A stretch of DNA of 64,000 nt from Hyphomonas sp. (GTDB taxonomy: Bacteria; Pseudomonadota; Alphaproteobacteria; Caulobacterales; Hyphomonadaceae). This document shows, piece after piece, positions 6,739 through 20,002 of this stretch (positions are counted from its first letter, which is position 1; every line of letters starts with the position of its first letter). The translations under genes and the position numbers were made by a program. The notes under the pieces are model-generated. The model did no database searches. It had not been told where the DNA came from and saw only the letters and a list, made by a program, of their open reading frames with translations. The DNA lies in assembly GCA_017792365.1 (NCBI GenBank), contig CP051229.1, forward strand, positions 2,790,001 to 2,854,000, in the 5' to 3' direction.

Positions 6739-7148
<410 letters not shown>

Positions 7149-7406
7149 GTGTTCAGCATTGAAATCGCAATCGCGGTAGTAGTCCTTGGACTCGTCCTAG
7201 GCTGGATACTGCCCCGAGTGCTGCTGGTTCTACTCGGGGGCGCGATCGTCACTGGTGTCATCGCGGCAGCGGCCGACGAGTACTCATTAAAATGGGCGGC
7301 TATTACAGCGATCGAACTCGTGCTTGGCCTCGCGCTTGGTTGGAAGCTGGCGAGTTGGATCGGGCCCAAGCGGAAGATCAGTTCGAAGACTGAAACTACT
7401 CCATAG
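7149..7406 (+). CDS. Small two-helix membrane protein, unknown function
   Basis: Predicted product of 85 residues from a GTG start, preceded by GGAGG with a five-base spacer, which decides the start over the longer open frame from 7101. Two hydrophobic segments: IAIAVVVLGLVLGWILP followed closely by VLLVLLGGAIVTGVIAAA, and a later amphipathic/hydrophobic stretch TAIELVLGLALGWKLASWI. The C-terminus is basic (GPKRKISSK). I do not recognise the family. It is the first gene of the island and lies between attL and a partial third copy of the att sequence. Confidence 0.55.
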   Translation: MFSIEIAIAVVVLGLVLGWILPRVLLVLLGGAIVTGVIAAAADEYSLKWAAITAIELVLGLALGWKLASWIGPKRKISSKTETTP

Positions 7407-7419
7407 CGATCGACTCTCT

Positions 7420-7434
7420 CACCCTCTCCGCCAG
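7420..7434 (+). repeat. Partial third copy of the tRNA-Ser end (15 bp)
   Basis: CACCCTCTCCGCCAG at this site is identical to the last 14 bases of the tRNA gene plus one following base. It may mark the junction of an older or tandem insertion between 6829 and 7434. Confidence 0.5.
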
Positions 7435-7495
7435 CGGTGAGGGCATTCCATTATTGCTCCAAAAATCAGAGACTCAAGGCGAGCCTGGGAGGCCG

Positions 7496-7526
7496 TGTAG
7501 GACGTTGCTCTTGCGAATGTAGGACG
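7496..7526 (+). promoter_or_regulatory. Direct repeat TGTAGGACG upstream of the methyltransferase
   Basis: TGTAGGACG occurs at 7496-7504 and 7518-7526, a 22-base period or about two helical turns, roughly 160 bases before the methyltransferase start. This spacing suits a dimeric DNA-binding regulator. No dedicated regulator gene is evident beside it. Confidence 0.4.
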
Positions 7527-7687
7527 ACAATCAGGCGTTACTCAGCGAAAACCGCCGAGAGCCATCTACCCCCACCATAACCCGTCCGGCAGGGACGGTT
7601 CTGGATCGAGCAAGGAGCCGATTCGGGTGGATCTTTCCGGCCAGGCTGCATAGAGTCTGAGATGGGATTCGTACAACGGAGGCAGCT

Positions 7688-9319
7688 TTGGCGTCTAACC
7701 GGAAGCTTCGCGCGATAGACTTGTATTCGGGTGTTGGTGGCTGGTCCCTCGGATTACGGTTGGCCGGCATACAAGTAGTAGCCTCTTATGACATCTGGGG
7801 TGCCGCCAACGAAACCAACTTCAAGAACAATCGACATCAAGCGCAGACGATCGACATTCGCCGTTTGGATGCGGCCGATCTGCCAGCTGCAATTGATCTA
7901 GTGGTAGGAAGTCCCCCATGCACGGAGTTCTCCTACTCCAATCGCGGTGGATCAGGCGACTTGGACGACGGCCTAAAGGATATCGCTAAGTTTCTCTCAG
8001 TCGTTGACCACATAAAGCCAAAAGCTTGGGTGATGGAAAACGTACCCCGAGTGGCAGAAATTATTGACCGCGAGTTGCGTGAAGGTCGGCTCCGATTACG
8101 CGCATTTGGGTACTCAAATGCGTATTTACGACATGGAGCAGTTCGGACTGCCACAACGCCGCCGTAGATGTTTAGCGGGAACATCAATTTTGATTTGCTG
8201 GAAAGCTACCGTAGTCATCAGACGGCTAAGACACTGGGTGATGTCGTCGGTGCGTTGTCCAAAAATCCGATTATCGACCCTAACTATGGTATCACACTCA
8301 AGAGCAGTGAGGTGTCCGACCATGAGATTGAACCCTACCTGAGTGATGAGGAGGTTAGGATCAACCGTGCCTCAAAGATGCTCCACCCCGTCTACAACGC
8401 CATGTCGTTCCCGGACCGGCTAGATCGAAGCGTTAGGACTATCACCGCGACCTGCACGAGGGTGTCGCGAGAAAGCATAGTAATTCGAGGCTCAATCAAC
8501 AGCAAGAAATTACGACGTTTGACACTTCGAGAGCGTGCGACGCTCCAAGGTTTCCCCATAACCTATCAATTCTATGGTTCGACCTATTCTCAAAAACAAA
8601 AGATGATCGGCAACGCCATGCCGCCGGTCTTCACCTACTTGATCGGCAATGCGATCAGAGGCACCTCTGTCGCGCGGCTTAAGCCGATTGCTCATCGCGC
8701 CGCGCAAATTAAATCACCGTCGGACTCTTCGCAGCAAACGCCTCCCGCCGCAGCAAAGAAGCTGTACCCAGCGGATCGTACCTTTCGGTTTGCTATCCCA
8801 AGCTTGCGGTTGAAGAGCGGGGTCAGATTTGAGCTCTCGAACCTGGGTAGCACTGACCGCTCGTGGAGTGTGCAATTCTATTATGGTACATCCAAGGACA
8901 TTCGATCGATCCTGCTGGATCAACATCTGTACAAGCGCTTGATGAAGTCGCTGCCTACCGAGTTGCGGTCAGCAGTTACAACGCATTTGGGGGTTGCTGT
9001 CGACTTCCTAGCCGAAGCAGACTTGAAAAATCTACAAGGTCTGTGGAGCCACCGCCGTCCCGGTGGTACCAGACCCTTCGCTCTTCTCGACATGCTGGAT
9101 TCGGTCGCACGTGAGTTGAGGCAACTGACATCACAAGAGATTCCGGTTGTTGAGGATGTCTTGCGTGAGATTTTGGGTAGTGGGGTCGCAGTTGGTCGCC
9201 AAAAGCTGGAGAGAAACGCGCCGCTTGTCTTGTCGGGGTTGGTTCTGGGTGCCGCCGTAAACGACAAACTCAGTCGGTCGACAGGTGCTCCGGAGTCGAT
9301 CAGCAGAAAACGAGCTTAG
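7688..9319 (+). CDS. C5-cytosine DNA methyltransferase with C-terminal extension (two compensating frame slips)
   Basis: Transfers a methyl group to cytosine in DNA, presumably to protect host DNA from the neighbouring nuclease genes. The TTG start follows GGAGG by five bases. Motif I is DLYSGVGGWS (about residue 11). Motif IV is GSPPCTEFS with the catalytic Cys about residue 78. Motif VI is ENVP, and motif VIII QRRRR reads in a shifted frame. The last two motifs are RERATLQGFP and GNAMPP. The frame slips at about 8107-8111 (an extra base near TTTGGG) and back at about 8177-8179 (a G missing in GCGGG). Correcting both gives about 543 residues. After motif X, about 190 residues follow that are not part of a standard C5 enzyme. 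It is convergent with the nuclease-like gene, with 15 bases between them. Confidence 0.88.
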
Positions 9320-9334
9320 CTACCTCAAAGATGG

Positions 9335-10294
9335 TCACACGGGTACGCATTCATAGCTGGATGGTTTCAGTTCCCATGCCGGTTCTTCGGTTTGGAAAAG
9401 TGCTGCGAAAGGTCCTGGGATTTTTTCTGGCTCATATTGAGAGTCAGAGAGTTTAGAAGACTCGATGATGTAGAGGCAGTATTCTTCGCCGAGCTCCTCT
9501 GCTGTCAGAATTTCGTTGGCGGACCAGAAGAAGCGTCGCTGTCCAACATACGATTTCACCTCAATGAATAGGTCGTGCACCAGAGCGGAGTGGGAGGAAA
9601 AAGACGCAATGTCGTATCCTGCTCCCACATCATCCACGGAGACTCGACGAATTTGTCCATGCAGCGGATGATCTTGGAGTCGACGACGCTCATATTCGAG
9701 CACCCACTCTTCTGCGGCCACTCCACGAGCCTCCATCTCAAGTAATTTTTGCTTGAGTTCGATGGCACTTTGAACGCGCCGCGCCTTACGATTGAAATCG
9801 CGAACGCCCTTGAGAAACAACGCTTTGAAGTCATCGTGCACTTGCCAATAGCGCGCATGAACATCCTTACGAAAACCTATCCCAAACTCGATCACCCAGA
9901 GGCCGAGGCCGTTCAAACTTGCTGGCAGGAGTTTGGAGTCTAGCCAGATGCTGCCATCATCCTTGGCCTGCAGACATTTGCGGATGTTTGCTTCCGTAAG
10001 CGCTTCGGCGACGCGAGTTGCTGTGGAAACACACAAGCGAGCGCGGATGTCCTCAATGTCAAATACACCCGTGATTGAGAGGTGATCGTCGATTGAGGTG
10101 ATGAACCCGAAAGCAACAAGCTGTTGAACAGTATTTACGATGCGGGATACCGAGCTCGGTCGCAGAGCGTGCACATTCTGGACGAACCGAGCACGCTCCA
10201 TCGGCTCGCTCGCTTCACCGAGAACTCTGAGCACCTGTAACGTCTGAATTTCTGAGAGGAGACCGTCACTCGGTCTTGCGATGTTCATAGGCAT
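9335..10294 (-). CDS. Winged-helix / DUF3883 (NOV) nuclease-like protein
   Basis: About 319 residues. The N-terminal 80 or so look like a winged helix (LSEIQTLQVLRVLGEAS, then SSVSRIVNTVQQLVAFGF). The C-terminal third matches the DUF3883/NOV pattern: EEWVLEYERR, then GAGYDIASF, LFIEVKS and FFWSANE. The D...EVK spacing is that of a PD-(D/E)XK nuclease, so DNA cleavage is likely but inferred. The gene overlaps the 3' end of the SNF2 gene. A TTG at 10333 extends the frame, but the ATGs at 10294 or 10288 look better; the start is uncertain. Last gene of the minus-strand run from the ParB-like gene. Confidence 0.75.
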   Translation of the reverse strand: MPMNIARPSDGLLSEIQTLQVLRVLGEASEPMERARFVQNVHALRPSSVSRIVNTVQQLVAFGFITSIDDHLSITGVFDIEDIRARLCVSTATRVAEALTEANIRKCLQAKDDGSIWLDSKLLPASLNGLGLWVIEFGIGFRKDVHARYWQVHDDFKALFLKGVRDFNRKARRVQSAIELKQKLLEMEARGVAAEEWVLEYERRRLQDHPLHGQIRRVSVDDVGAGYDIASFSSHSALVHDLFIEVKSYVGQRRFFWSANEILTAEELGEEYCLYIIESSKLSDSQYEPEKIPGPFAALFQTEEPAWELKPSSYECVPV

Positions 10295-12245
10295 CGAGAA
10301 TTGCTCGAATGTCTTGGAGGTTTTCTCCGTCAAATTTGGACGTGAGTAGGGGGATGTCGTTGGCGTCGACGAGTTTGGCCAGCCGATCTTCTTTCAACGC
10401 GAGCCGACTATCGATGTCGATGTCGACGGTGCCGGGGCTCTGCAGGTAGTAGTAGGTGACCGGATCGCCGCCGGCGGGATTATATCGATGAATTCGGTCT
10501 TTTGACTGAATGAATCTTCCGGCGTTGAAATCTCGATCAAAGTACACCGCAGATTGGCAGGCCTTGTGTAACGATATCGATTCGCCAACGGCCTGTGGAT
10601 TCGCGATCAGAATACCGTGCGTCGTGACACGATGGAACTCGTCGATGATCTGCTCCCGAGTACCCCAATCCTGATTGTCGTCGTCTTCTATACCCTGACT
10701 CGAAACCGGCGTCGCTCCGGACAGGACTTCGACGAACGGCGCTAACTCACCGAGAGATTTCTTCAGTAAATCCAAGTTTCCAAGGAAGTATGACCAAACG
10801 AGGATTTTCCCCTGTGTGTCCAAGACCTCCTTTACGATACTCTTGCACGCCACCATGCGTTCGAGATCTAGTTCGGCGTTGAAGCCGCTGATGAGGTCCG
10901 CGATCTCGAGTTCCGCTACGGAGAAGCTACCTGTGTCGCCATCATCGAAGAGTCTGTCATCTTCAATAGGACGTAGCAGAAGCTCGGGGTTACAGCATGC
11001 CTGTCTGAGACGAATTAATCGTGCACGGACTCTAACCGTGCTTGGAGACCCATTCAAAACTTGGCGCAGTGCTGGGATGATTTGTCTCTCTAAGCCTCTG
11101 TATATCCGCTCCTGAGTGGGACCCATTTCAACCGGTACGCGGACTTGTGAAGCCGGAGGTAAATGCAAATCTGATTTTCTGATGCGCGTGAAGAATGGCC
11201 GAATGCGTTCCTGGAGCTGCGGTATGGCTTGCGACAGTGAACCGTCAGTCATCGAACGCAGAGATGGATTCGAAAACCCAATCACATTTCGCGCAGGGTA
11301 AATAAAGCGAAACAGATTCGAGAGATCTTCATAGCCGTTTGGTGCTGGTGTGCCGGTGAGGACTACTCGTGCAGCGGCGAGTGGCGCCAGTCTGAGCGTC
11401 GAAGCTGCTCGAATTCCGTCCTCCCCTTTGATGTAGTGCGCTTCGTCTAGGACGATCATCGTCCGCTGAGAAGCCATCCCTAGAAAGGTACGGAAATCTT
11501 CTTCCGAGTTTGCGAGGGTGGAATACGAAGTCAGCGTAAGCTCCGTAGTCCGAGAATCCGGGTGAATTCCGGTTAGATACGCTTTGCGCTCAGCCGACGG
11601 GACTATTCCAGACAACCGCTTTGATTTCGCGTGGTTGCCAAAGATTGCTGCATACTCGTCCTCCCATGCCTTAAATGATGAGAGCGGTCCGACGATGAGC
11701 AGTCGCGAGACACGCTTGTCGTCATCAGCTTTCAGGCTGCGGAGATATGCGTAGCAGGCGTAAACGATTGACGTCTTGCCCGCTCCGGGAACGGAGAAGT
11801 TGCAGGAATGCTGCGCGAACGCCATATGGAAAGCTGACAGTAGCTGCTTCCTGTAAAATTTTCTGTTGTGACAGAGGCGCTCAACTTTGCTTACGAAGTC
11901 AGAGAACGCTTCCACGTCAACGTCGCCATTCCAAATTCTGTCGGCCTCTTGGGAGAACCGCAGAAATTCGAGTCGCTCACGTTCAACATCAGAAAGCAGG
12001 ACGGAAGCGTGCGCTCCGGCAGAAGCGCTCGCGCCGAGTTGGGAAAGCAACTTCACCAACGTGTTGTAGCGGCTGGACAACTCCCCCGGAGGCGTGGCTA
12101 CGACGACGGTGCCGTCAGGATCTGTCGACGCGGAAAACTGCCTTAGGAAGGTAGCTAGTACCGGGTGACGTCGCTGAGAATTGGAGAGGCCTTTGAGCGC
12201 CAACTGCTCGTCCGCAGGATCATATTCGAGTACAACGTCACCCAA
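10266..12245 (-). CDS. SNF2-family helicase/translocase
   Basis: A 659-residue superfamily-2 ATPase. The Walker A loop is SVPGAGKTS (residues 151-159), the Walker B box is LDEAH (266-270) and motif III is LTGTPAPN (296-303). The C-terminal RecA domain ends with QSKDRIHR near residue 590. The roughly 150 residues before the ATPase are not assigned. Proteins of this type translocate on double-stranded DNA and often power restriction, as in HsdR or DISARM helicases. The TTG start has AGGA nine bases upstream, overlapping the ParB-like stop 11 bases away, so the genes are tightly co-transcribed. The natural reading is a motor that works with the ParB-like and DUF3883 proteins. Confidence 0.88.
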   Translation of the reverse strand: MGDVVLEYDPADEQLALKGLSNSQRRHPVLATFLRQFSASTDPDGTVVVATPPGELSSRYNTLVKLLSQLGASASAGAHASVLLSDVERERLEFLRFSQEADRIWNGDVDVEAFSDFVSKVERLCHNRKFYRKQLLSAFHMAFAQHSCNFSVPGAGKTSIVYACYAYLRSLKADDDKRVSRLLIVGPLSSFKAWEDEYAAIFGNHAKSKRLSGIVPSAERKAYLTGIHPDSRTTELTLTSYSTLANSEEDFRTFLGMASQRTMIVLDEAHYIKGEDGIRAASTLRLAPLAAARVVLTGTPAPNGYEDLSNLFRFIYPARNVIGFSNPSLRSMTDGSLSQAIPQLQERIRPFFTRIRKSDLHLPPASQVRVPVEMGPTQERIYRGLERQIIPALRQVLNGSPSTVRVRARLIRLRQACCNPELLLRPIEDDRLFDDGDTGSFSVAELEIADLISGFNAELDLERMVACKSIVKEVLDTQGKILVWSYFLGNLDLLKKSLGELAPFVEVLSGATPVSSQGIEDDDNQDWGTREQIIDEFHRVTTHGILIANPQAVGESISLHKACQSAVYFDRDFNAGRFIQSKDRIHRYNPAGGDPVTYYYLQSPGTVDIDIDSRLALKEDRLAKLVDANDIPLLTSKFDGENLQDIRAILDAYEHRKTE

Positions 12246-12256
12246 GCGTTTCGATC

Positions 12257-13555
12257 CTAATTGAGGCTACTCTTCTCAAAAAGTTTCTTCATCTCGTAAC
12301 TGAGCCGATTGATTTCTATGGCCAGTTCGCGGTTTTCATTCGAAATCAACGCGGGATTATCGAGACTGATCCGCTCCAAGAGATCCTTCGCGCGGCGTAG
12401 GTACTCATTCGGCTGCAATTCCTCCGTAGCTAGCTTGAGTCGGTACTGAGCCTGTCCGAAGGTCTGCTTCATGTCGTTTCCGACAGCAGACTTCCACACC
12501 TCATCTCTGGCTTTGGCGGCGACTTCCTTCGAAGGGTAGTCGGGATTGGCCTGCATGTACTCTTCGAGCGAACCCATGCTGTCAGTTTTTGGGAGGACTT
12601 TCTCGGCGTAGTCTTCGCGAAATTTATCCCAGTTTTCTTTGTTGGCGAAGAAGTTCTTTCCCTTCCCGCCGTGAGAAATGTCGCGGTAGCTCTTCTTGGT
12701 GGCGTCGAAAAAATCATCCCCGCGGATATAGTCAAAATGTATCGCGCGAAGCCATGCTAGGTCCGTTTCATCGAACGACCAATCAATGTTGTTGGCCGAA
12801 CCGCGTTGCAACCGGTTGAGGTCTGCATACAGATCAACGAACATACCCTCTTTCGTCCCTAGTAGCGTGTAGAGACGAGGACATTGAATGTGCTCAAGGT
12901 AGTCGTCCATCAAATCCATTATACCCAAAAGCCGTTTTGTATTTCCCTTTCCCTCGTCCATCAGCTCATCGACTTCCTCTGGGGAGATATTGAGGTCCCG
13001 GCAGAGCCGCCGTGCATGTAGGTATTTTTGGAGGGGTCCGTACTCGACCTTGGAGTCTTCGCCGAGTTGGTATTGCGTTTCGAGACGCACGATCTCAGCT
13101 TGGTTGTCGGCGTAGGCATCTGGAAGGATGATGCCGTCGAAATACTGCTTCTGCTTGGTTTGTCTTTCGAGGCGGCGCAGCAGCATGGCGCGACGATTAC
13201 CGTCAATGACGACACCGTCGAGGCTTACTATCCCAGGTCTTTGTTGGCCTTTGCGCTCTAGGTCGCTCAGCGTGTGCTTGTTCCGCTGGAGGTTGGAATT
13301 CCACAGCAGGTCGTCGATTTTTTGGTGAAGCGCCTCATCATAAAGATCAGGCGAGATCGCGTTCTCCTGTTCCCAGGTGAGCATCTCCGCTTCAAGACGG
13401 CCGTTGTGTCGATTGTAGATCAGATAGTCGAGATCGATGCGGTAGACCTGCAGTAGTTGAGTCTGTCCCTTGTAGAACAGCTTCTGCGTCTGCTCGCCTG
13501 CAGATTGCCTTAATGCGCTGAGCTTCGACTTTCGCGTTTCAGTGCTTAGGATCAA
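12257..13555 (-). CDS. ParB/Srx-fold protein of a restriction-like module
   Basis: About 432 residues. A ParB-like signature GVVIDGNRRAMLLRRL lies near residues 115-130, preceded by a segment on binding positions (LQRNKHTLSDLERKGQQ). ParB/sulfiredoxin folds bind nucleotides (CTP or ATP) and occur in DNA-modification systems such as DndB/SspE (background). The rest is helical and unassigned. The start chosen is TTG at 13555, because GGGGG lies five bases before it and its TTGA overlaps the stop of the small upstream ORF; a TTG at 13567 is also possible. It is not a plasmid partition gene: no parA neighbour is present, and it sits directly in front of the SNF2 gene. Confidence 0.7.
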   Translation of the reverse strand: MILSTETRKSKLSALRQSAGEQTQKLFYKGQTQLLQVYRIDLDYLIYNRHNGRLEAEMLTWEQENAISPDLYDEALHQKIDDLLWNSNLQRNKHTLSDLERKGQQRPGIVSLDGVVIDGNRRAMLLRRLERQTKQKQYFDGIILPDAYADNQAEIVRLETQYQLGEDSKVEYGPLQKYLHARRLCRDLNISPEEVDELMDEGKGNTKRLLGIMDLMDDYLEHIQCPRLYTLLGTKEGMFVDLYADLNRLQRGSANNIDWSFDETDLAWLRAIHFDYIRGDDFFDATKKSYRDISHGGKGKNFFANKENWDKFREDYAEKVLPKTDSMGSLEEYMQANPDYPSKEVAAKARDEVWKSAVGNDMKQTFGQAQYRLKLATEELQPNEYLRRAKDLLERISLDNPALISNENRELAIEINRLSYEMKKLFEKSSLN

Positions 13556-13791
13556 AGTTCCCCCCAAGGGTGTTGATGGTAACCAAACCGCAGTTCCGAA
13601 GCGATGGACTTGGTTACCCTAGAGACCGGCAGGACAATCGTACTCCCAACACGGGGAAGCTCAAAATCCATCAATTGTAAGCGATGGCCATATTCTATGT
13701 ACTTGCTGCATTGGGTTCGCGATGGAGCTGGCCATGCTGAGACCGCTCCAGAAAATGAGTTTGATGGGCGAATGTTCGTAGCGGTCTTCAT
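13552..13791 (-). CDS. Small ORF (79 aa) coupled to the ParB-like gene
   Basis: ATG start at 13791; the TGA stop overlaps the TTG start of the ParB-like gene (TTGA), which is the main argument that it is translated. The product is rich in small and polar residues in the first half, then has beta-like segments (GSTIVLPVSRVTKSI). I recognise no family. An opposite-strand ORF of 71 residues covers the same bases, but lacks the coupling evidence. Confidence 0.4.
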   Translation of the reverse strand: MKTATNIRPSNSFSGAVSAWPAPSRTQCSKYIEYGHRLQLMDFELPRVGSTIVLPVSRVTKSIASELRFGYHQHPWGEL

Positions 13792-13921
13792 TGCGATTGG
13801 GCCTGTTCGAAAAGGTTAGGAACAGTCTTCGGACTTTCCAGAACCAAGTGGCTTCTTTGCATTACGCGGCTTGCTGAAAATCGACATGTTCAAAGTCTGC
13901 ACCTCTGGTCCGTTAGTCGCG

Positions 13922-14713
13922 TCATGCGGCGGCTCGTAGCGCTGGAACTTGCCGGACCAGAGATGAGATATCGAGTCCATCAACCAGCGCTACACGGTTG
14001 CTGATTGCCAGTTCCTCTGCCGGCGTCGAAAAGCCGTGACGGGAAAACACGACCGCAATAGTCGCGCCATAGTGGTCCCTAGCAGCGCTAATCTCCTGGA
14101 CCGCGCGTACGCCAGCCGGTTTGTTCAGGTTCTTGCACTGCGCCACGCACCGCAGTTCTTGAAGGCTGAATACGATGTCGGCACCAAAGTCCGCTCCGGG
14201 CACAGTTAGGTTCACATCGGTCGAAAGAGCCTTGAGTGCTTCTAGGCAGGCTATTTCGTACGCTTGTCCTTTCGCAAAGCTGGAAGGATCAGTAGGTGCC
14301 AGCTCGGCGATCTCGAGTTGAGCGAAGCTCACGCACCACACAACTTCATGGCTCACGTAATCCCAGGAGCCGATCCCCTCTGATTTCATCAATCTGAGCA
14401 TCGACCTCTGGACCTTCCTGAGGTCTGGCTTGCCGTAGGAATCGCGTTTGACATCTCGAGTGAAGACGGCTCGCGCTCTGTCGCTGATTAGGCTGTAGTC
14501 ATTAAACGTCGATACGAAACTCCTCATGATCCCCTCTGCGGAAACCAATTTGCCGTATTCTTCGGTAAGGTAGCGGTCTTTCAGAAGATCGATCCGCTGG
14601 CGCGCTGTTGTCTCGGCTGGCTGCTTTCGCAGGTATTTGAAGCCGCTCTGGCTGAGTTTCTTGCGAAGGCGTTCCTCTAGACGAAGCTTCTTGTCGTAGT
14701 CGTCCATAGCCAT
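13922..14713 (-). CDS. Mrr-like restriction endonuclease domain protein
   Basis: About 263 residues. The C-terminal half has the Mrr/RecB-like PD-(D/E)XK core: KGQAYEIACLEAL (first acidic residue), GADFGADIVF (catalytic Asp), VAQCKN (QxK motif), then DHYGATIAVVFSRHGF. Mrr-type enzymes cut DNA, often only when it is modified. The N-terminal 130 residues are charged and helical and may recognise DNA. ATG 14713 was chosen over ATG 14728 because a GGGG lies seven bases upstream. It is transcribed in the same direction as the ParB-like and SNF2 genes but is separated from the small ORF by 130 bases. It may belong to that module or be an independent type IV-like defence gene. Confidence 0.75.
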   Translation of the reverse strand: MAMDDYDKKLRLEERLRKKLSQSGFKYLRKQPAETTARQRIDLLKDRYLTEEYGKLVSAEGIMRSFVSTFNDYSLISDRARAVFTRDVKRDSYGKPDLRKVQRSMLRLMKSEGIGSWDYVSHEVVWCVSFAQLEIAELAPTDPSSFAKGQAYEIACLEALKALSTDVNLTVPGADFGADIVFSLQELRCVAQCKNLNKPAGVRAVQEISAARDHYGATIAVVFSRHGFSTPAEELAISNRVALVDGLDISSLVRQVPALRAAA

Positions 14714-14809
14714 GTTCGGACCCCGCATGCGAACAGAGAGATGCTTCAGCTTTCACCAGAGAAAGTGAATGCGGTTAACGATTGATGGACTCTTTTGAGG
14801 TCGGCCACT

Positions 14810-14943
14810 TGTCTCAAAAACCACCGTTTTCGAGGCTGTGGCGTAAAGGCCATATCTCCCTGTTTTTCCTATCATAAGTTGTCTCATAAATTGTCTCGAA
14901 ACTGGTTTGGTGGCATAAGTGCTCAGGGACCATTTTTGAGACA
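14810..14943. promoter_or_regulatory. TGTCTC boxes: candidate res / crossover site of the serine recombinase
   Basis: TGTCTC occurs at 14810-14815, 14880-14885 and 14892-14897, and its inverse GAGACA at 14938-14943, just before the recombinase ATG. The outer pair is TGTCTCAAAAA against TTTTTGAGACA. Serine resolvases usually bind such dyads immediately upstream of their own gene. Confidence 0.5.
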
Positions 14944-14951
14944 GGACAGCC

Positions 14952-15500
14952 ATGAGAGTAGGTTACGGGCGAGTATCGACAAAGGAGCAGGACACCGCCT
15001 TGCAGACGCGTGCGTTGGGCGAAGCAGGGTGTGAACGCATCTTCACGGAAACCGCGTCAGGGGCGCAGAGGGAACGTCCAGAGCTTGCTAGCGCGCTCCA
15101 GTTCTTGCGCCCCGGCGATACGTTGGTTGTTTGGAAACTGGACCGGCTTGCGAGATCGATGCGTCAGCTCATCGAGACAGTGGAGCAGCTCTCCGAAAGT
15201 AATGTCGGTTTCATCTCACTGACTGAGGCTATCGACACCAACACGCCGGGCGGACGCTTGGTGTTTCATATCTTCGGCGCTCTCGCAGAGTTTGAACGCG
15301 AGCTCATTCGGGAACGCACGAAAGCTGGGCTGAAAGCAGCCCGAGAGCGCGGCGTTGCTGTCGGTCGACCGAAAGCACTGGTTGGAGACCAGTTGAAGCT
15401 TGCTAGAAGTCTGAAGGCTGCGGGCGCTCACTCGGGGGCTGAAATTGCGCAAATATTGGGTATCAGCCGCGCGACCCTGTATCGTTCACTGCAAGTATAA
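14952..15500 (+). CDS. Serine recombinase (resolvase/invertase family)
   Basis: A 182-residue small serine recombinase. The N-terminal catalytic domain has MRVGYGRVSTKEQD with nucleophile Ser9, then VVWKLDRLARS and AEFERELIRERT. A C-terminal HTH_7 helix-turn-helix follows (SGAEIAQILGISRATLYRSL). It would resolve or invert DNA at sites like the TGTCTC boxes directly upstream. It is divergent from the Mrr-like gene. It is a second recombinase in the island, distinct from the integrase; no Tn3-type transposase accompanies it, so it may be a leftover of a transposon or a dedicated resolvase of the island. Confidence 0.93.
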   Translation: MRVGYGRVSTKEQDTALQTRALGEAGCERIFTETASGAQRERPELASALQFLRPGDTLVVWKLDRLARSMRQLIETVEQLSESNVGFISLTEAIDTNTPGGRLVFHIFGALAEFERELIRERTKAGLKAARERGVAVGRPKALVGDQLKLARSLKAAGAHSGAEIAQILGISRATLYRSLQV

Positions 15501-15678
15501 GGCTTTCGTGGCGTATTCACCGGGAAAAATGAGCGACCCCCATTCAGGGCTTGTGGGCTACCCTAAGACCCTTTCCATAATATTTTGGGAACGGGCGATT
15601 CAGTCTCGGTATTGATCGTCGCCATTTTTCTTGTTCAGACATAGTGCCCATGCCTCTCGCTCCCCCCAAGTCCTCCAA

Positions 15679-15948
15679 CTATCGGCGGACATGCACGTCA
15701 CTTGCCGGGCTCTCCAGACGCTCCAAATAGTCCGCCACCACCTTCCAAAATGCGCCGCCACACAATTTGGAAGCTTCGCCATTCGTTATTAGACGAACCC
15801 ACGGGTTCTTCGAAGAGATCTGGCTTGAAAACATTGGCATGAGATCAAGGTTGGAAACGCTGCCGGTGCAATAAATAGTAATTTCGACGCGGACGCTCCG
15901 TATAGCGACTAGCCGCAACTCCGCTTGATATTCGCAATCTGTGCACAT
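15679..15948 (-). CDS. Hypothetical 89-aa protein (doubtful)
   Basis: ATG start at 15948. The product begins MCTDCEYQAEL and has a hydrophobic mid-section and a charged end. There is no clear ribosome-binding site and no family recognised. It is kept only because its amino-acid composition is more protein-like than that of competing frames. Confidence 0.22.
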   Translation of the reverse strand: MCTDCEYQAELRLVAIRSVRVEITIYCTGSVSNLDLMPMFSSQISSKNPWVRLITNGEASKLCGGAFWKVVADYLERLESPASDVHVRR

Positions 15949-16313
15949 TCCGCTTGTTGATGACCGAACATCTGGGTCAGCGAATTCTTGTTCGCGCTAT
16001 ATGGCAGACTAGAAAGTCGCCCACCAAAAAATGACTTGGATGAGTGTCCGCGCGACTCAGTGCGCCAGTGATCGCTCGATCTGCGTTTCGCGTTTCCAGC
16101 GCAACAGTGTCGCTGCCGCAGCAGGAAAGACCGGTCTTCCCATTTTTTGGTGCGGCGCTTACAGATCTCCTGAAAAAATCTGGACGATGGCCAAGGCCGG
16201 CACGCTCTGGGAACCCTTATACTGCTCAGATAGCGGAAATTCGGGGGTTCTCGGCAAGGTGAGTGCAACCCAGCGAATTCCACTGGTTGTTTCGTCCGGG
16301 CACTGTCCAAGAT

Positions 16314-16364
16314 ACGTGGGGTAAATCCGTAACACGTGGGGTGTCACACATTGTCTGTCACACA
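16314..16364. repeat. Iteron-like ACGTGGGGT repeats followed by inverted TGTGTGAC pair
   Basis: ACGTGGGGT occurs at 16314-16322 and 16334-16342, a 20-base period. GTCACACA, the complement of the arm motif TGTGTGAC, follows at 16343-16350 and 16357-16364. The site could be an additional recombinase-binding site, a promoter operator or a replication origin for the HUH-like protein. Confidence 0.4.
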
Positions 16365-16621
16365 TGCGCAGATACGAAGATGCATGTTGAGCGCCCGCAT
16401 GAGTTCCGCCGCGATGATCATGTATTAAGTCCGCGATTTGGGAGGGGACAGCATGAGTCACTACCGTCAGCTAGTTGGCTATCCCACTAGATGCTCGGTA
16501 GAAATGTTCGAACCGGTGGTTGCCCTGGCAGCGTTCACGCCGGCCCACTTTCGTCCTATGGTAGGTTGAGCGCCGCTGGCAAATGATTCAATTAAGTCCG
16601 GTTTGGGGGGAGCGCATCGGC

Positions 16622-16849
16622 ATGAGCAAGTTGATCGGACTAATTGTTTCATTTGTTCTGTTTAGCGCAGGTTGGACGGGGATAATCGATGCATTCTTCG
16701 AGTGGCGCGATGCCGTAAATCCAATGATAAATCTCTACCTATGCGGAAGAGATAGCGTCTTGAGGCTGATTCCATTTTCCGTCCCGGATGGATTAGTCGA
16801 ATACCTCCTTATTTGCACAGGAGCACAAAATAGGTACCGTTCTATTTAA
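16622..16849 (+). CDS. Small membrane or secreted protein, unknown
   Basis: A 75-residue product. The ATG at 16622 was preferred to an ATG at 16583 because GGGGGAG lies about ten bases before it and the hydrophobic N-terminus (MSKLIGLIVSFVLFSAGW) starts there. One transmembrane or signal segment, then a polar region with one Cys pair. I recognise no family. It is followed after 37 bases by another small membrane-protein gene on the same strand. Confidence 0.4.
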   Translation: MSKLIGLIVSFVLFSAGWTGIIDAFFEWRDAVNPMINLYLCGRDSVLRLIPFSVPDGLVEYLLICTGAQNRYRSI

Positions 16850-16886
16850 TCGAGAAGTTGGGAACGTTGATCACAACGAGAACATA

Positions 16887-17165
16887 TTGGCTCGTGTTAT
16901 AATATTTCTTTTGCTTCCGTTTCTGATCTATTTTGCGGCTGCGGTAGCGGTTCTTGTATTGTTCTATGAACGGTCGTTTGCCGCTCGAATGCTCGTTTAT
17001 GTAAAAAACCTCCTTTACGCCTTCCTCCCGCCGATTTTTTTTGATGTTTTTAGTAGTGGGCCTGAGAAGCTAGTAGATCGACGCTTCAATTTTTCAGACG
17101 TCTTCTTCTGCAGCAAACGAGCTAATCGGGATGATTGTCAGGACGCTCTCAAAATCGATTTGTAG
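16887..17165 (+). CDS. Small membrane protein, unknown
   Basis: A 92-residue product from a TTG start. It has a strong N-terminal hydrophobic stretch (IIFLLLPFLIYFAAAVAVLV) and a second hydrophobic part (LLYAFLPPIFFDVF), then a hydrophilic tail with two Cys. The start is uncertain. Its last 28 bases overlap the 3' end of the convergent HUH-like gene. With the preceding gene it may form a two-gene membrane unit of the island. Confidence 0.4.
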   Translation: MARVIIFLLLPFLIYFAAAVAVLVLFYERSFAARMLVYVKNLLYAFLPPIFFDVFSSGPEKLVDRRFNFSDVFFCSKRANRDDCQDALKIDL

Positions 17166-18145
17166 TGTGCCTGAAACTCGCCATAGAGCTTTCTCGCTCT
17201 GGATTTTACTGAACGCGTTGCGGCAATAGTCTTGCCGTCTAGTAGCTCGGCGGTGATGAGGGAATGCTTTTGAGCGTACGCGGCCCATCCACCTTGGGGA
17301 CCAGCTTCAGAGACTTTTACAAAGGAAGGTTCCTTGTCGCCCGCCAATACATGCAGCGCTTCGACCGTTGCCTCTCTGGCCTCTGCGCCGCCGCCGAAGG
17401 CAATCCCACCGTGAAGGTGGGGATCGATCCCCACACCACTCTCCAATGCAAACCAGAAGCTCGGCGCTTCAAGTCCAAGGCGCCGTCTCAACAATTTCGA
17501 AAGTCGGCTTTGGAGGTGCGAGGCTAGCCCTATCCTGGCATTCCTTGCGGCCGCTTCGACAGCTGGGGTCAGCATAACCGTGAAGGCCCTAGCGTGTGCT
17601 GGTTCTAAGGACCAAGCGTAGAATGCCGACTTCAACAATGGGGTGGTTTTGTCCCAACCGTAGACCCTAACTTCGTTGCCAAGGCGTTTGGCGCGATCAA
17701 GTTTGGAGATGCACTTCAGGCGCCGGTTTATTCGAGATACTTCTTTCAGGTTGTCCGAATCTATCGCTCGCTGCAGGCTTTCAATGAGATCATCCTTGCA
17801 CCTCAGGATACTCTTCAATTTCGGTCTGGCGACGAGACTTTGTTCGTAGAGAAAGTTTTCAGCTAGTCGCTTCACTAGCAAACTGCTCGATGTCGACAGG
17901 CAGTCGGGCTCGATATTCCGCAGTATTTCAAGTGTCTGCCTGTCTCGCTTAAATGACGGCCAAGGGGGCGGCGTCGGAGAACTTGCAGCGCCATCCTCAT
18001 ACTTTTTGCGCTGCTCTGAAGATCGATCATCACTGTCAAACTCTTCGAGCGCCATCCGTCGCCGCTCTAGCGAAAGTTCCCGCGAGCGAGTCAGCCGTTT
18101 GTTGTGGCGGCGGATTACTTTGGCAGCTGCCGGACTAATCAACAT
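17138..18145 (-). CDS. Protein with HUH-endonuclease-like motifs, possible replication initiator
   Basis: A 335-residue protein. The N-terminal 230 are basic and helical, without recognised domains. From about residue 229, SFWFALESGVGIDPHLHGG resembles motif 2 of HUH rolling-circle enzymes, where a strand with Glu precedes two metal-binding His (His243 and His245). Tyr290 and Lys293 in WAAYAQKH form a YxxK like motif 3, whose Tyr nicks DNA. These are motif-level matches only. In that reading the protein could nick the island's DNA for replication or mobilisation. The gene is 12 bases from the integrase stop and in the same direction, so it may be co-expressed with the integrase. Confidence 0.5.
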   Translation of the reverse strand: MLISPAAAKVIRRHNKRLTRSRELSLERRRMALEEFDSDDRSSEQRKKYEDGAASSPTPPPWPSFKRDRQTLEILRNIEPDCLSTSSSLLVKRLAENFLYEQSLVARPKLKSILRCKDDLIESLQRAIDSDNLKEVSRINRRLKCISKLDRAKRLGNEVRVYGWDKTTPLLKSAFYAWSLEPAHARAFTVMLTPAVEAAARNARIGLASHLQSRLSKLLRRRLGLEAPSFWFALESGVGIDPHLHGGIAFGGGAEAREATVEALHVLAGDKEPSFVKVSEAGPQGGWAAYAQKHSLITAELLDGKTIAATRSVKSRARKLYGEFQAHYKSILRAS

Positions 18146-18157
18146 GGCTCACCCACA

Positions 18158-19885
18158 TTATTTCACTGATCGGAGGTGGCTAAGGTCGAGAAACGAAAAT
18201 CCAATCTGAGAGCAGTATGGCCGATGGTAGTCAGCTAGGTCAGGCTTCCTGTAATGCCTTCTCATGCCTTCAAGAGCATGTCCCATGATCCGATGCCGCC
18301 AGTCGTCAGGGAACTGCACACGTGACATCTCTGTCTCTAGAGTGTGGCGGAAGCAGTGAAACACCGGCCGGTCGCCGTCCAACAATTCTTGGCGCAGGAC
18401 TTTGTTGTTGAAGTTGTTCTGGCACGGAGCGCAAGAGTATGGTTTTCCCGCTGGCTTCCTCCAATCGGGGAACAGGCGCGTCTCTCGCTTATTTCGTAGG
18501 TCCCGAACGTAGTCGCTGAAACCAATTTCAGCGAGCCGTGGATGGATGGGTATTTCGCGGACCGCGCTCGCCGTTTTTGTGCCTCTCACTACGAAGTGCG
18601 GCAGTTGATGTTCAGTCGGCAAATGGATGTCGCTGAGTAGGAGTGATGCGATCTCATTGGCCCTCATGCCGGTAAATAGCGCAATCAACGGTGGCCAGAA
18701 GTATCGATCACGTATGATCATGCTGCCGGGTGTGTTGCGTGCTATTTCGTCCTTGCAGCCTGTCCAAATAGGGTGACTGAAAATGGCGCTCAGCTCGTGC
18801 TCCCTAAAGGGACGTCGAGACGAGCTCAGTTCGTGCGCGCCATCGATTCGAATGCCTTGGAAGGGGTTGTGGCTGGTGAGTTCTTTTCTGAACGACTCAG
18901 CAACAGCAGCGTTTAGCGCCCCGACATAACCGACCTTGATTGTGCGCGCCGCAAGCGTCCTGAATGGCATATTGCGCTGACCGTTCGCTTCGATTGCCTG
19001 GCGGAGCGAGAGCCCTGCGAAGCGTTCTGAGTATCTGGCCGGAACTCGACGTAGCTGATCAGCAAACTCCTCCACGTGGGATCGTCTAATCAACGCCAAC
19101 GACGAAATCCCCACCAAGTCATGCCAAGCCCGGACAGCATTTCGCATCTTGATAACCATGTGCGGCCGGTCAGCCTTGACCTTCGAATAGTATTCGACGG
19201 CTTGATCCAAGGTGTACCTCGAAGGCTCGGGTCCTTTGGGGCGCCCGTTCAGGAGTTGATCAAACCCGTCGGAGCTTTGCGAGGACAGAATGATTTTAAG
19301 ACCGCTGAGATGCGCCCTCGTTAGTAGGTGGCAGAATAGAGCGTGCTCTCCGGATTCCGTTGCAACGTCCCAACCATAGCGGTTAGCTAACTCAGCGGCG
19401 GCCCTCAAAATGAGGGGAGATTTGGAGGAGCGTTCGAGCTCATCCCGGATCTCCAGCCAATCACTTAGAGGGCGCCCAGCGACCCAATCGGAGACAACGT
19501 GGCCGACCTCTTCAAGGGCGTCCTCATCGAAGTGGGCCGTGGATTCTTGGATCAAACTCCATCGGTATCGATCCGCAACTTCGATCAATACTTCTCTTGT
19601 GGGCTTGTTGCGCAGAGGAGGAGGGAGGTCAGCAGGGTTGAAGGACGAATTGTCTGCGAGACTGACTGACGAACCGGCGAGGTCCGTGCTCTGCGCCATC
19701 TGGTGAAATCGATCTCGGGCGGATTGCGCGCGCTTCATCGCAACGTCGCGGTCTCGCGTCCTCAGGCTGAACTGCACAAACTCCGAGTCGCCAAAGGATG
19801 CAGAGCCGCGAAGGTGCTGAGGTACACGTTTCTTGAAATGGTAGGTGCCGTTGCGCTGGATCGTGTCGGGCAGAGACTTGGGCAT
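18158..19885 (-). CDS. Tyrosine site-specific integrase of the island
   Basis: A 575-residue phage-type integrase. The N-terminus (RNGTYHFKKRVPQHLRG) is the small entry domain seen in many island integrases, and a SAM-like core-binding region follows. The catalytic residues are visible: Arg in GMRANEIASL (about 407), HxxR in FHCFRHT (about 510-513), His in MGHALEG (about 535) and the nucleophile Tyr in RRHYRKP (about 545). It would recombine the tRNA-Ser attachment site. The gene starts 91 bases inside attR, with the TGTGTGAC pair (19892-19911) directly upstream of its ATG, so the integrase probably represses its own promoter when bound. Confidence 0.95.
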   Translation of the reverse strand: MPKSLPDTIQRNGTYHFKKRVPQHLRGSASFGDSEFVQFSLRTRDRDVAMKRAQSARDRFHQMAQSTDLAGSSVSLADNSSFNPADLPPPLRNKPTREVLIEVADRYRWSLIQESTAHFDEDALEEVGHVVSDWVAGRPLSDWLEIRDELERSSKSPLILRAAAELANRYGWDVATESGEHALFCHLLTRAHLSGLKIILSSQSSDGFDQLLNGRPKGPEPSRYTLDQAVEYYSKVKADRPHMVIKMRNAVRAWHDLVGISSLALIRRSHVEEFADQLRRVPARYSERFAGLSLRQAIEANGQRNMPFRTLAARTIKVGYVGALNAAVAESFRKELTSHNPFQGIRIDGAHELSSSRRPFREHELSAIFSHPIWTGCKDEIARNTPGSMIIRDRYFWPPLIALFTGMRANEIASLLLSDIHLPTEHQLPHFVVRGTKTASAVREIPIHPRLAEIGFSDYVRDLRNKRETRLFPDWRKPAGKPYSCAPCQNNFNNKVLRQELLDGDRPVFHCFRHTLETEMSRVQFPDDWRHRIMGHALEGMRRHYRKPDLADYHRPYCSQIGFSFLDLSHLRSVK

Positions 19886-19891
19886 GGGTAT

Positions 19892-19911
19892 TGTGTGACG
19901 TAATGTGTGAC
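19892..19911 (+). repeat. Paired TGTGTGAC repeats, candidate integrase arm sites (right)
   Basis: TGTGTGAC at 19892-19899 and 19904-19911, the same 12-base period as the left pair at 6892-6911. They sit immediately upstream of the integrase start codon. Confidence 0.6.
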
Positions 19912-19975
19912 GAATTCACAGGCATTATCGTTGAAAACACATAAATTTTTGATTAATCAGGCATAAATTTGCCAA

Positions 19976-20002
19976 TGGGTTCGAATCCCACCCTCTCCGC
20001 CA
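19976..20002 (+). repeat. attR: right copy of the 27-bp tRNA-Ser repeat
   Basis: Exact copy of 6802-6828 without the rest of the tRNA. It marks the right boundary of the island; host-type high-G+C sequence resumes afterwards. Confidence 0.93.

Follow-up and report, generated by a model that had tools for sequence, protein, structure and literature searches.

What holds a C5-cytosine methyltransferase (MTase), a ParB-like protein, a SNF2-family ATPase and a DUF3883 protein together in one small chromosomal element, and what might such a combination do to DNA? The question is raised by a 64,000-nucleotide stretch of a Hyphomonas sp. chromosome (assembly GCA_017792365.1, contig CP051229.1), bases 2790001-2854000 of a complete 3.40-Mb genome, hereafter the window. 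A sequence-only reading had proposed that these genes, together with a coupled open reading frame (ORF) of 79 amino acids (aa) and an upstream Mrr-like nuclease, form an undescribed restriction-like module within a tRNA island, and all the ORFs that it named are found where it placed them (Table 1). Drawing on gene content, gene order, co-variation, catalytic motifs and predicted fold, our analysis establishes that the cassette is real, widespread, mobile, restriction-modification (R-M)-like and new in layout; the window copy is complete in its three-gene core, with an MTase that is broken as assembled. We consider it probable, short of firm, that the cassette is a horizontally moving R-M variant in which a ParB-type clamp and a SNF2 motor stand between methylation and cutting.

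Do the genes belong together outside this genome? A genome scan with a five-row alignment as query yielded 277 relatives of the ParB-like gene, and 79 loci were retained together with 17 viral ones; a viral scan with a single ParB sequence found nothing, and the alignment query was needed. Iterated profile searches across 107 loci recovered SNF2 in 95, the MTase in 87 and DUF3883 in 80. The expectation that the four genes recur as a set was confirmed by the 58 full-context loci, those with 5.5 kb or more to either side, where SNF2 is present in 55, a C5-MTase in 53, DUF3883 in 47 and all four in 47, and by distances between loci that co-vary from gene to gene (Mantel r of 0.94 for ParB-SNF2, 0.92 for SNF2-DUF3883 and 0.90 for ParB-DUF3883). 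Correlations with the MTase run from 0.76 to 0.80 (ParB-MTase, 0.80). For ParB-SNF2, ParB-DUF3883 and ParB-MTase alike, none of 999 permutations was as high. R-M in the broad sense is defined by a DNA MTase whose conserved operon includes a nuclease, and most of these loci fit, with DUF3883 in 47 and MutH or type III Res in others. A MutH-domain protein replaces DUF3883 in three loci (L073, L075, L082), and a serine hydrolase replaces both SNF2 and DUF3883 in three more (L038, L039, L084); the remaining exceptions are the type III Res loci L105 and L106 and three plasmid loci. The cassette spans at least Pseudomonadota, Bacteroidota, Bacillota, Actinomycetota, Chloroflexota, Campylobacterota, Omnitrophota and several candidate phyla, and the closest kin of the window cassette within Pseudomonadota belong to Sphingomonas, a Rhodobacteraceae metagenome-assembled genome and Solimonas. 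Its mobility is apparent from its presence on a prophage, on IMG/VR contigs and in the tRNA element of the window: a tblastn search of phage records brought up Streptococcus phage Javan191, which carries a restriction endonuclease (REase) gene, ParB, SNF2 and DUF3883 with a convergent C5-MTase, in the window's order.

The three core genes are closely arrayed in the window as in their relatives, with an 11-base gap between ParB-like and SNF2 genes, the tight coupling already claimed for them, and an overlap between SNF2 and DUF3883. In 80 same-strand trios the median gap between ParB and SNF2 is 3.5 bases and the median overlap of SNF2 with DUF3883 is 26 bases, so the three genes look like one operon. 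The convergent arrangement of the MTase and DUF3883 genes, 15 bases apart, is likewise as described. Pfam places both effector candidates in the families first assigned to them (SNF2, E 2e-21; DUF3883/NOV_C, E 4e-15), and the SNF2 ATPase motifs and the DUF3883 nuclease signature are conserved across 45 dereplicated loci. In 44 DUF3883 sequences, D241 and E258-V-K260 are nearly invariant, giving the D...ExK signature of PD-(D/E)XK nucleases and agreeing with the D...EVK motif originally recognized. The DUF3883 model (predicted local distance difference test score, pLDDT, 90.3; predicted template modeling score 0.66) has the winged helix of that first reading at residues 24-91 and aligns over residues 194-323 with a SPARDA filament chain (9qcc; Z 8.9, root-mean-square deviation, rmsd, 4.2), and a Foldseek search with it returned mostly winged helices and no match below E 0.001. 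Earlier papers described DUF3883 as a new REase domain in fusion with SNF2 (PMC3710099) and as a presumed type II REase group (PMC10609329).

The ParB fold of the fourth protein came out by structure only. A sequence search of the PDB with the ParB profile gave chance matches only; Pfam gives just a sub-threshold ddrB-ParB match for its 436 residues. Structure comparison supports the fold that the sequence-only reading had assigned: the model (pLDDT 92.9) superposes on KorB (8qa9) over residues 39-315 (Z 11.0, 197 residues, rmsd 4.8), on Noc (Z 9.5, 203 residues, rmsd 4.2) and, over residues 40-173, on nucleotide-bound ParB (ParB-CDP; Z 9.5, rmsd 1.7). The P motif reads DGNRR, and its G-x-R-R is kept in 102 of 106 loci. 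As modeled, the protein therefore has the ParB-CTPase fold with the GxxR P motif. A 2025 survey of the fold reports that the P-motif arginine is required for binding nucleoside triphosphate (NTP), that members bind CTP, ATP or GTP with a specificity not predictable from sequence, and makes no mention of SNF2 (PMC12704722). The ParB-like protein may thus bind an NTP, and CTP would be one candidate among the three.

Is the window copy a working one? The family assigned to its MTase is upheld by Pfam, with C5-MTase matches in two pieces (E 7e-24 and 1e-11); the assumption of a single gene is not, since METHYLTRANSFERASE as assembled is two ORFs in one frame (7688-8167 and 8168-9319) with a stop between them. 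Only by leaving that frame can motif VIII (GLPQRRRRCLAG) be read, from about 8091 to about 8182: where MTase relatives read ...HLGCVTHIIDMANYGLPQRRRRCVAGNF..., the window counterpart, AHLGTQMRIYDMEQFGLPQRRRRCLAG, is out of frame. One shift lies near 8091 and a second near 8182, and together they cancel; the window MTase also departs from conserved motif VIII positions. That this MTase protects its own genome, as had been supposed, is not borne out with the frame so broken. The window copy may be a decaying, inactive remnant whose MTase was killed by two real indels, a serious possibility that we nonetheless rate somewhat below even: motif VIII lies out of frame, a stop interrupts the gene, and the relatives are open there, including the MTases of L012-L014 (51-53% identity). 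However, the out-of-frame stretch is well preserved and the shifts cancel, so the indels either arose very recently or do not exist. The genome has a second, unrelated C5-MTase (L139 5368-6445; 849367-850444 in genome coordinates), followed by an open Vsr gene, that likewise changes frame twice, and two MTases so affected hint at assembly indels; a third C5-MTase (L140) has an open frame. A codon-model scan of sampled genome stretches found about one frame-shift-like site per 20 kb, which fits assembly indels as well; it is weak evidence, because the scan detected 9 of at most 40 spiked deletions, missed the known MTase breaks and had no clean control genome. Decay is also at odds with the open frames of SNF2, ParB-like, DUF3883, Mrr and integrase genes. 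Assembly indels are at least as likely an explanation as real decay of the window MTase.

How tightly is the trio bound to methylation? Two layouts recur. In type A, an MTase (median 470 aa) and a BanI/DpnII-like REase are followed by ParB-SNF2-DUF3883; in type B the MTase is longer (median 558 aa), Vsr is often present and the BanI/DpnII-like REase is missing. The window groups with L012-L014 as type B with the MTase convergent behind DUF3883; Vsr is present in L012 and L014 and absent from the window, where a tblastn search for Vsr remnants gave chance matches only. The RE_BanI/DpnII-like REase occurs in 14 of the 58 full-context loci, and the MTase's partners vary among the BanI/DpnII-like nuclease, a MutH-like protein and Vsr. 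Between L066 and L055, identity is 75% for ParB (81% in its helix-turn-helix, HTH, region), 71% for SNF2, 56% for DUF3883 and 23% for the MTase, with MutH accompanying L066; the MTase has been swapped while the trio stayed constant, and therefore the trio is the core and the MTase side is exchangeable. Recognition of the MTase's site by the ParB-like protein, part of the original proposal, is weakened by this pair, in which 23% identity between MTases stands against 81% in the ParB HTH. Nor does the ParB HTH co-vary with the MTase recognition region any more than the ParB N-domain does (partial r 0.27 and 0.27).

The same genes keep other company. Among more distant relatives, a BglII-like REase and an N4/N6 MTase directly precede ParB-SNF2-DUF3883 in L129 (7095-12633) and L132 (5970-13509), where the trio joins R-M systems of other chemistry. 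At a contig end (L127) the ParB-SNF2 pair lies beside a D12 MTase, and in L105 (2933-9800), L106 and L104 type III Mod/Res genes lead directly into a ParB-like and SNF2 pair. Enterococcus plasmids (L007, L008) carry a divergent ParB-like and SNF2 pair behind the gene for a protein of some 870 aa whose HTH resembles sigma-70 region 4, and 52 Enterococcus plasmid records match the ParB-like protein. An Exiguobacterium plasmid (L009, 9148-11721) encodes a SNF2 protein with a fused N-terminal PLD-like domain beside ParB-like and ParA genes. Type-A cassettes on prophages (L006 and the viral loci L091-L098) adjoin Cro/C1-type HTH and M78-peptidase genes, and probably sit at the lysogeny region.

The trio might then be an independent accessory, blind to methylation, that destroys nicked or cut DNA or acts once R-M has been defeated, next to an ordinary MTase-REase pair. 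Its constancy while MTase and REase are swapped is what such an accessory would display, as is the occurrence of ParB-SNF2 beside type III Mod/Res (L105, L106), beside BglII REase and N4/N6 MTases (L129, L132) and beside other genes on Enterococcus plasmids. Yet type B (Vsr-MTase-ParB-SNF2-DUF3883) has no dedicated REase to which the trio could be an accessory and still keeps all four genes, and we judge this explanation unlikely. That the ParB-like protein serves partition or maintenance of a mobile element, with its neighbors as coincidental cargo, accords with its HTH-bearing ParB fold and its link to mobile elements but is very improbable: parA genes are nearby, among annotated loci, only at the divergent plasmid locus L009, chromosomal loci from many phyla keep its gene strictly in one operon with those for SNF2 and DUF3883, and an integrated element needs no partition.

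Returning to the reading of the cassette as an R-M variant with a clamp and a motor, its steps might run as follows. The MTase would methylate a site in the host genome and so protect it, and Vsr, where present, would repair deaminated 5-methylcytosine. Unmethylated sites in incoming DNA would act as the trigger, with the MTase or its partner nuclease as likely site reader in place of the ParB HTH, because the exchange of MTases disfavors the latter; in the window, the Mrr protein may take the place of the partner nuclease. The ParB-like protein, once bound to NTP, would act as a sliding clamp or switch that closes on DNA and recruits or licenses the SNF2 motor, which would travel along double-stranded DNA with the DUF3883 PD-(D/E)XK nuclease and cut or shred it. 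Several points weigh against this scheme. The window MTase is broken, yet the SNF2, ParB-like and DUF3883 frames are open; an active nuclease on unmethylated sites without its MTase should kill the cell, which leaves an error in the assembly, a silent system or a further requirement for restriction as the options. The lack of a dedicated type II REase in type-B cassettes leaves the site-reading step unsettled, the loci were chosen by ParB similarity and their counts are not independent events, and the identity of the nucleotide, clamp formation and translocation are all steps that we infer. If the scheme is correct, a clamp of the CTPase type, familiar from chromosome segregation, has come to link DNA methylation with the destruction of foreign DNA. 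There would then be an explanation for a gene set that now goes under "hypothetical protein" on prophages, on plasmids of Enterococcus and in chromosomes from many phyla. The cassette looks like an undescribed means of telling own from foreign DNA.

Is the motor indispensable? In six loci (L034, L038, L039, L052, L056, L084) the ParB-like gene is paired with a PGAP1/lipase-like serine hydrolase. These ParBs form one clade (6 rows, support 100) nested among the SNF2-paired ones, and in the alpha/beta hydrolases HSMGG is conserved along with an aspartate and a histidine. Each of the six loci has a C5-MTase nearby, and two lie beside a full cassette. A hydrolase in place of SNF2 and DUF3883 supports, in this small sample, a ParB that is a switch over one that merely loads SNF2. 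We offer only tentatively the broader idea of a general methylation-status switch driving different effectors, mostly a SNF2 motor and nuclease and, in one clade, a serine hydrolase; if true, this would be R-M with an exchangeable punishment arm, including a membrane-attacking, abortive form.

How new is the layout? The view that the set matches no published system withstood comparison with PADLOC-DB 2023, which holds no model of the ParB-like protein or of the set and gives SNF2 only weak ZorD, DpdE and DrmD matches; NCBIfam and PHROGs gave no match for the ParB-like or DUF3883 proteins. The four-gene set is not described in the literature searched, of which the nearest themes are MORC operons, Dnd/CxC, BREX-related systems and the ParB fold survey; most subscription papers, REBASE and DefenseFinder lie outside that scope, so "undescribed" is provisional. 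Type II R-M shares the C5-MTase, the REase of RE_BanI/DpnII profile in type A and the Vsr companion. The cassette differs by the added ParB-like/SNF2/DUF3883 operon, and the REase is missing from many cassettes and from the window, where no dedicated site-specific REase was recognized, only Mrr_cat. Types I and III resemble it in combining a superfamily 2 motor, a nuclease and an MTase, and ParB-SNF2 pairs also stand beside type III Mod/Res (L105, L106); the cassette, however, has in most loci a C5-MTase and not an N6/N4 one, a separate SNF2-family motor gene and the ParB-like protein. The window has a C5-MTase and no Res, which occurs only in L010 and L104-L107.

MORC/MutL-type R-M operons (Iyer 2008, PMC2292703) are alike in SNF2 helicase, cytosine MTase, Vsr and variable nucleases, but have a GHKL ATPase where the cassette has a ParB-like NTPase fold; that paper makes no mention of ParB, and no HATPase match was found among the island proteins. 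A HATPase_c_3 protein adjoins the divergent relative L133. DISARM class 2 shares a SNF2 helicase (weak DrmD matches) and a C5-MTase (DrmMII matches), whereas the island has ParB-like and DUF3883 proteins instead of DrmA, DrmB and DrmC; a PADLOC scan of ten island proteins gave no DrmB or DrmC among the matches listed, and DrmD only at E 2e-4. Zorya is represented by a partial ZorD helicase-domain match, with no ZorA, ZorB or ZorC match. The 7-deazaguanine system Dpd, which includes a ParB-like protein, DpdB, shows a weak likeness between DpdE and SNF2, but the cassette has C5 methylation instead, and neither DpdA nor modification genes were found among the island proteins. Dnd/Ssp systems with DndB or SspE have a ParB superfamily member in common with the cassette, which has SNF2 and a C5-MTase instead and no Dnd or Ssp model match among the island proteins. 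SpyI of phage 1207.3 was considered as a described relative and rejected as an LlaJI/McrBC-like system.

Table 1. Positions of the cassette, its neighbors and the carrying element in the window
Feature	Position	Strand	Remarks
C5-cytosine MTase with C-terminal extension, frame broken	7688..9319	+	Pfam, two pieces
DUF3883/NOV_C nuclease (putative)	9335..10333	-	winged helix, residues 24-91; C-terminal D241...E258-V-K260
SNF2-family ATPase	10266..12245	-	GxGKT, DEAH and motif VI kept
ParB-like protein	12257..13567	-	predicted CTPase-type fold, KorB/Noc-like HTH region, helical C-terminal part; P motif D122-GNRR126, E163
79-aa ORF	13552..13791	-	no relative beyond window, no family match
Mrr_cat nuclease	13922..14728	-	upstream neighbor, same strand; Pfam E 3e-15
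Tyrosine integrase with DUF6538	18158..19885	-	mobility gene of element (Pfam)
Integrative element, 13,174 bp	6829..20002	.	in tRNA-Ser(cga) 3' end; att repeats, GC step, integrase at attR end

Two further genes of the window had been counted with the set. The upstream Mrr nuclease is intact, but it is linked to ParB only here and is not part of the set; iterated profile searches found relatives of both Mrr and the 79-aa ORF in the window only (1 of 107 loci). Although not conserved, Mrr possibly stands in for the partner nuclease of related cassettes. The 79-aa ORF, described as coupled to the ParB-like and SNF2 genes, drops out of the module and is probably either no gene at all or no conserved component.

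What carries the cassette? The tRNA island proposed at the outset is confirmed: the 27-bp attachment (att) repeat TGGGTTCGAATCCCACCCTCTCCGCCA, the 3' end of tRNA-Ser(cga) at 6802-6828, recurs at 19976-20002, and GC content falls to 0.53 between the repeats from 0.62-0.66 in the surrounding chromosome. The 14-base att core has 3 occurrences against 0.04 expected, and an incomplete third repeat at 7420-7433 marks off a leading segment of 0.6 kb, which holds an ORF of 101 aa. Immediately downstream of the integrase the element encodes a 335-aa protein without family match (17138-18145); its serine resolvase of 182 aa (14952-15500) has an open frame.

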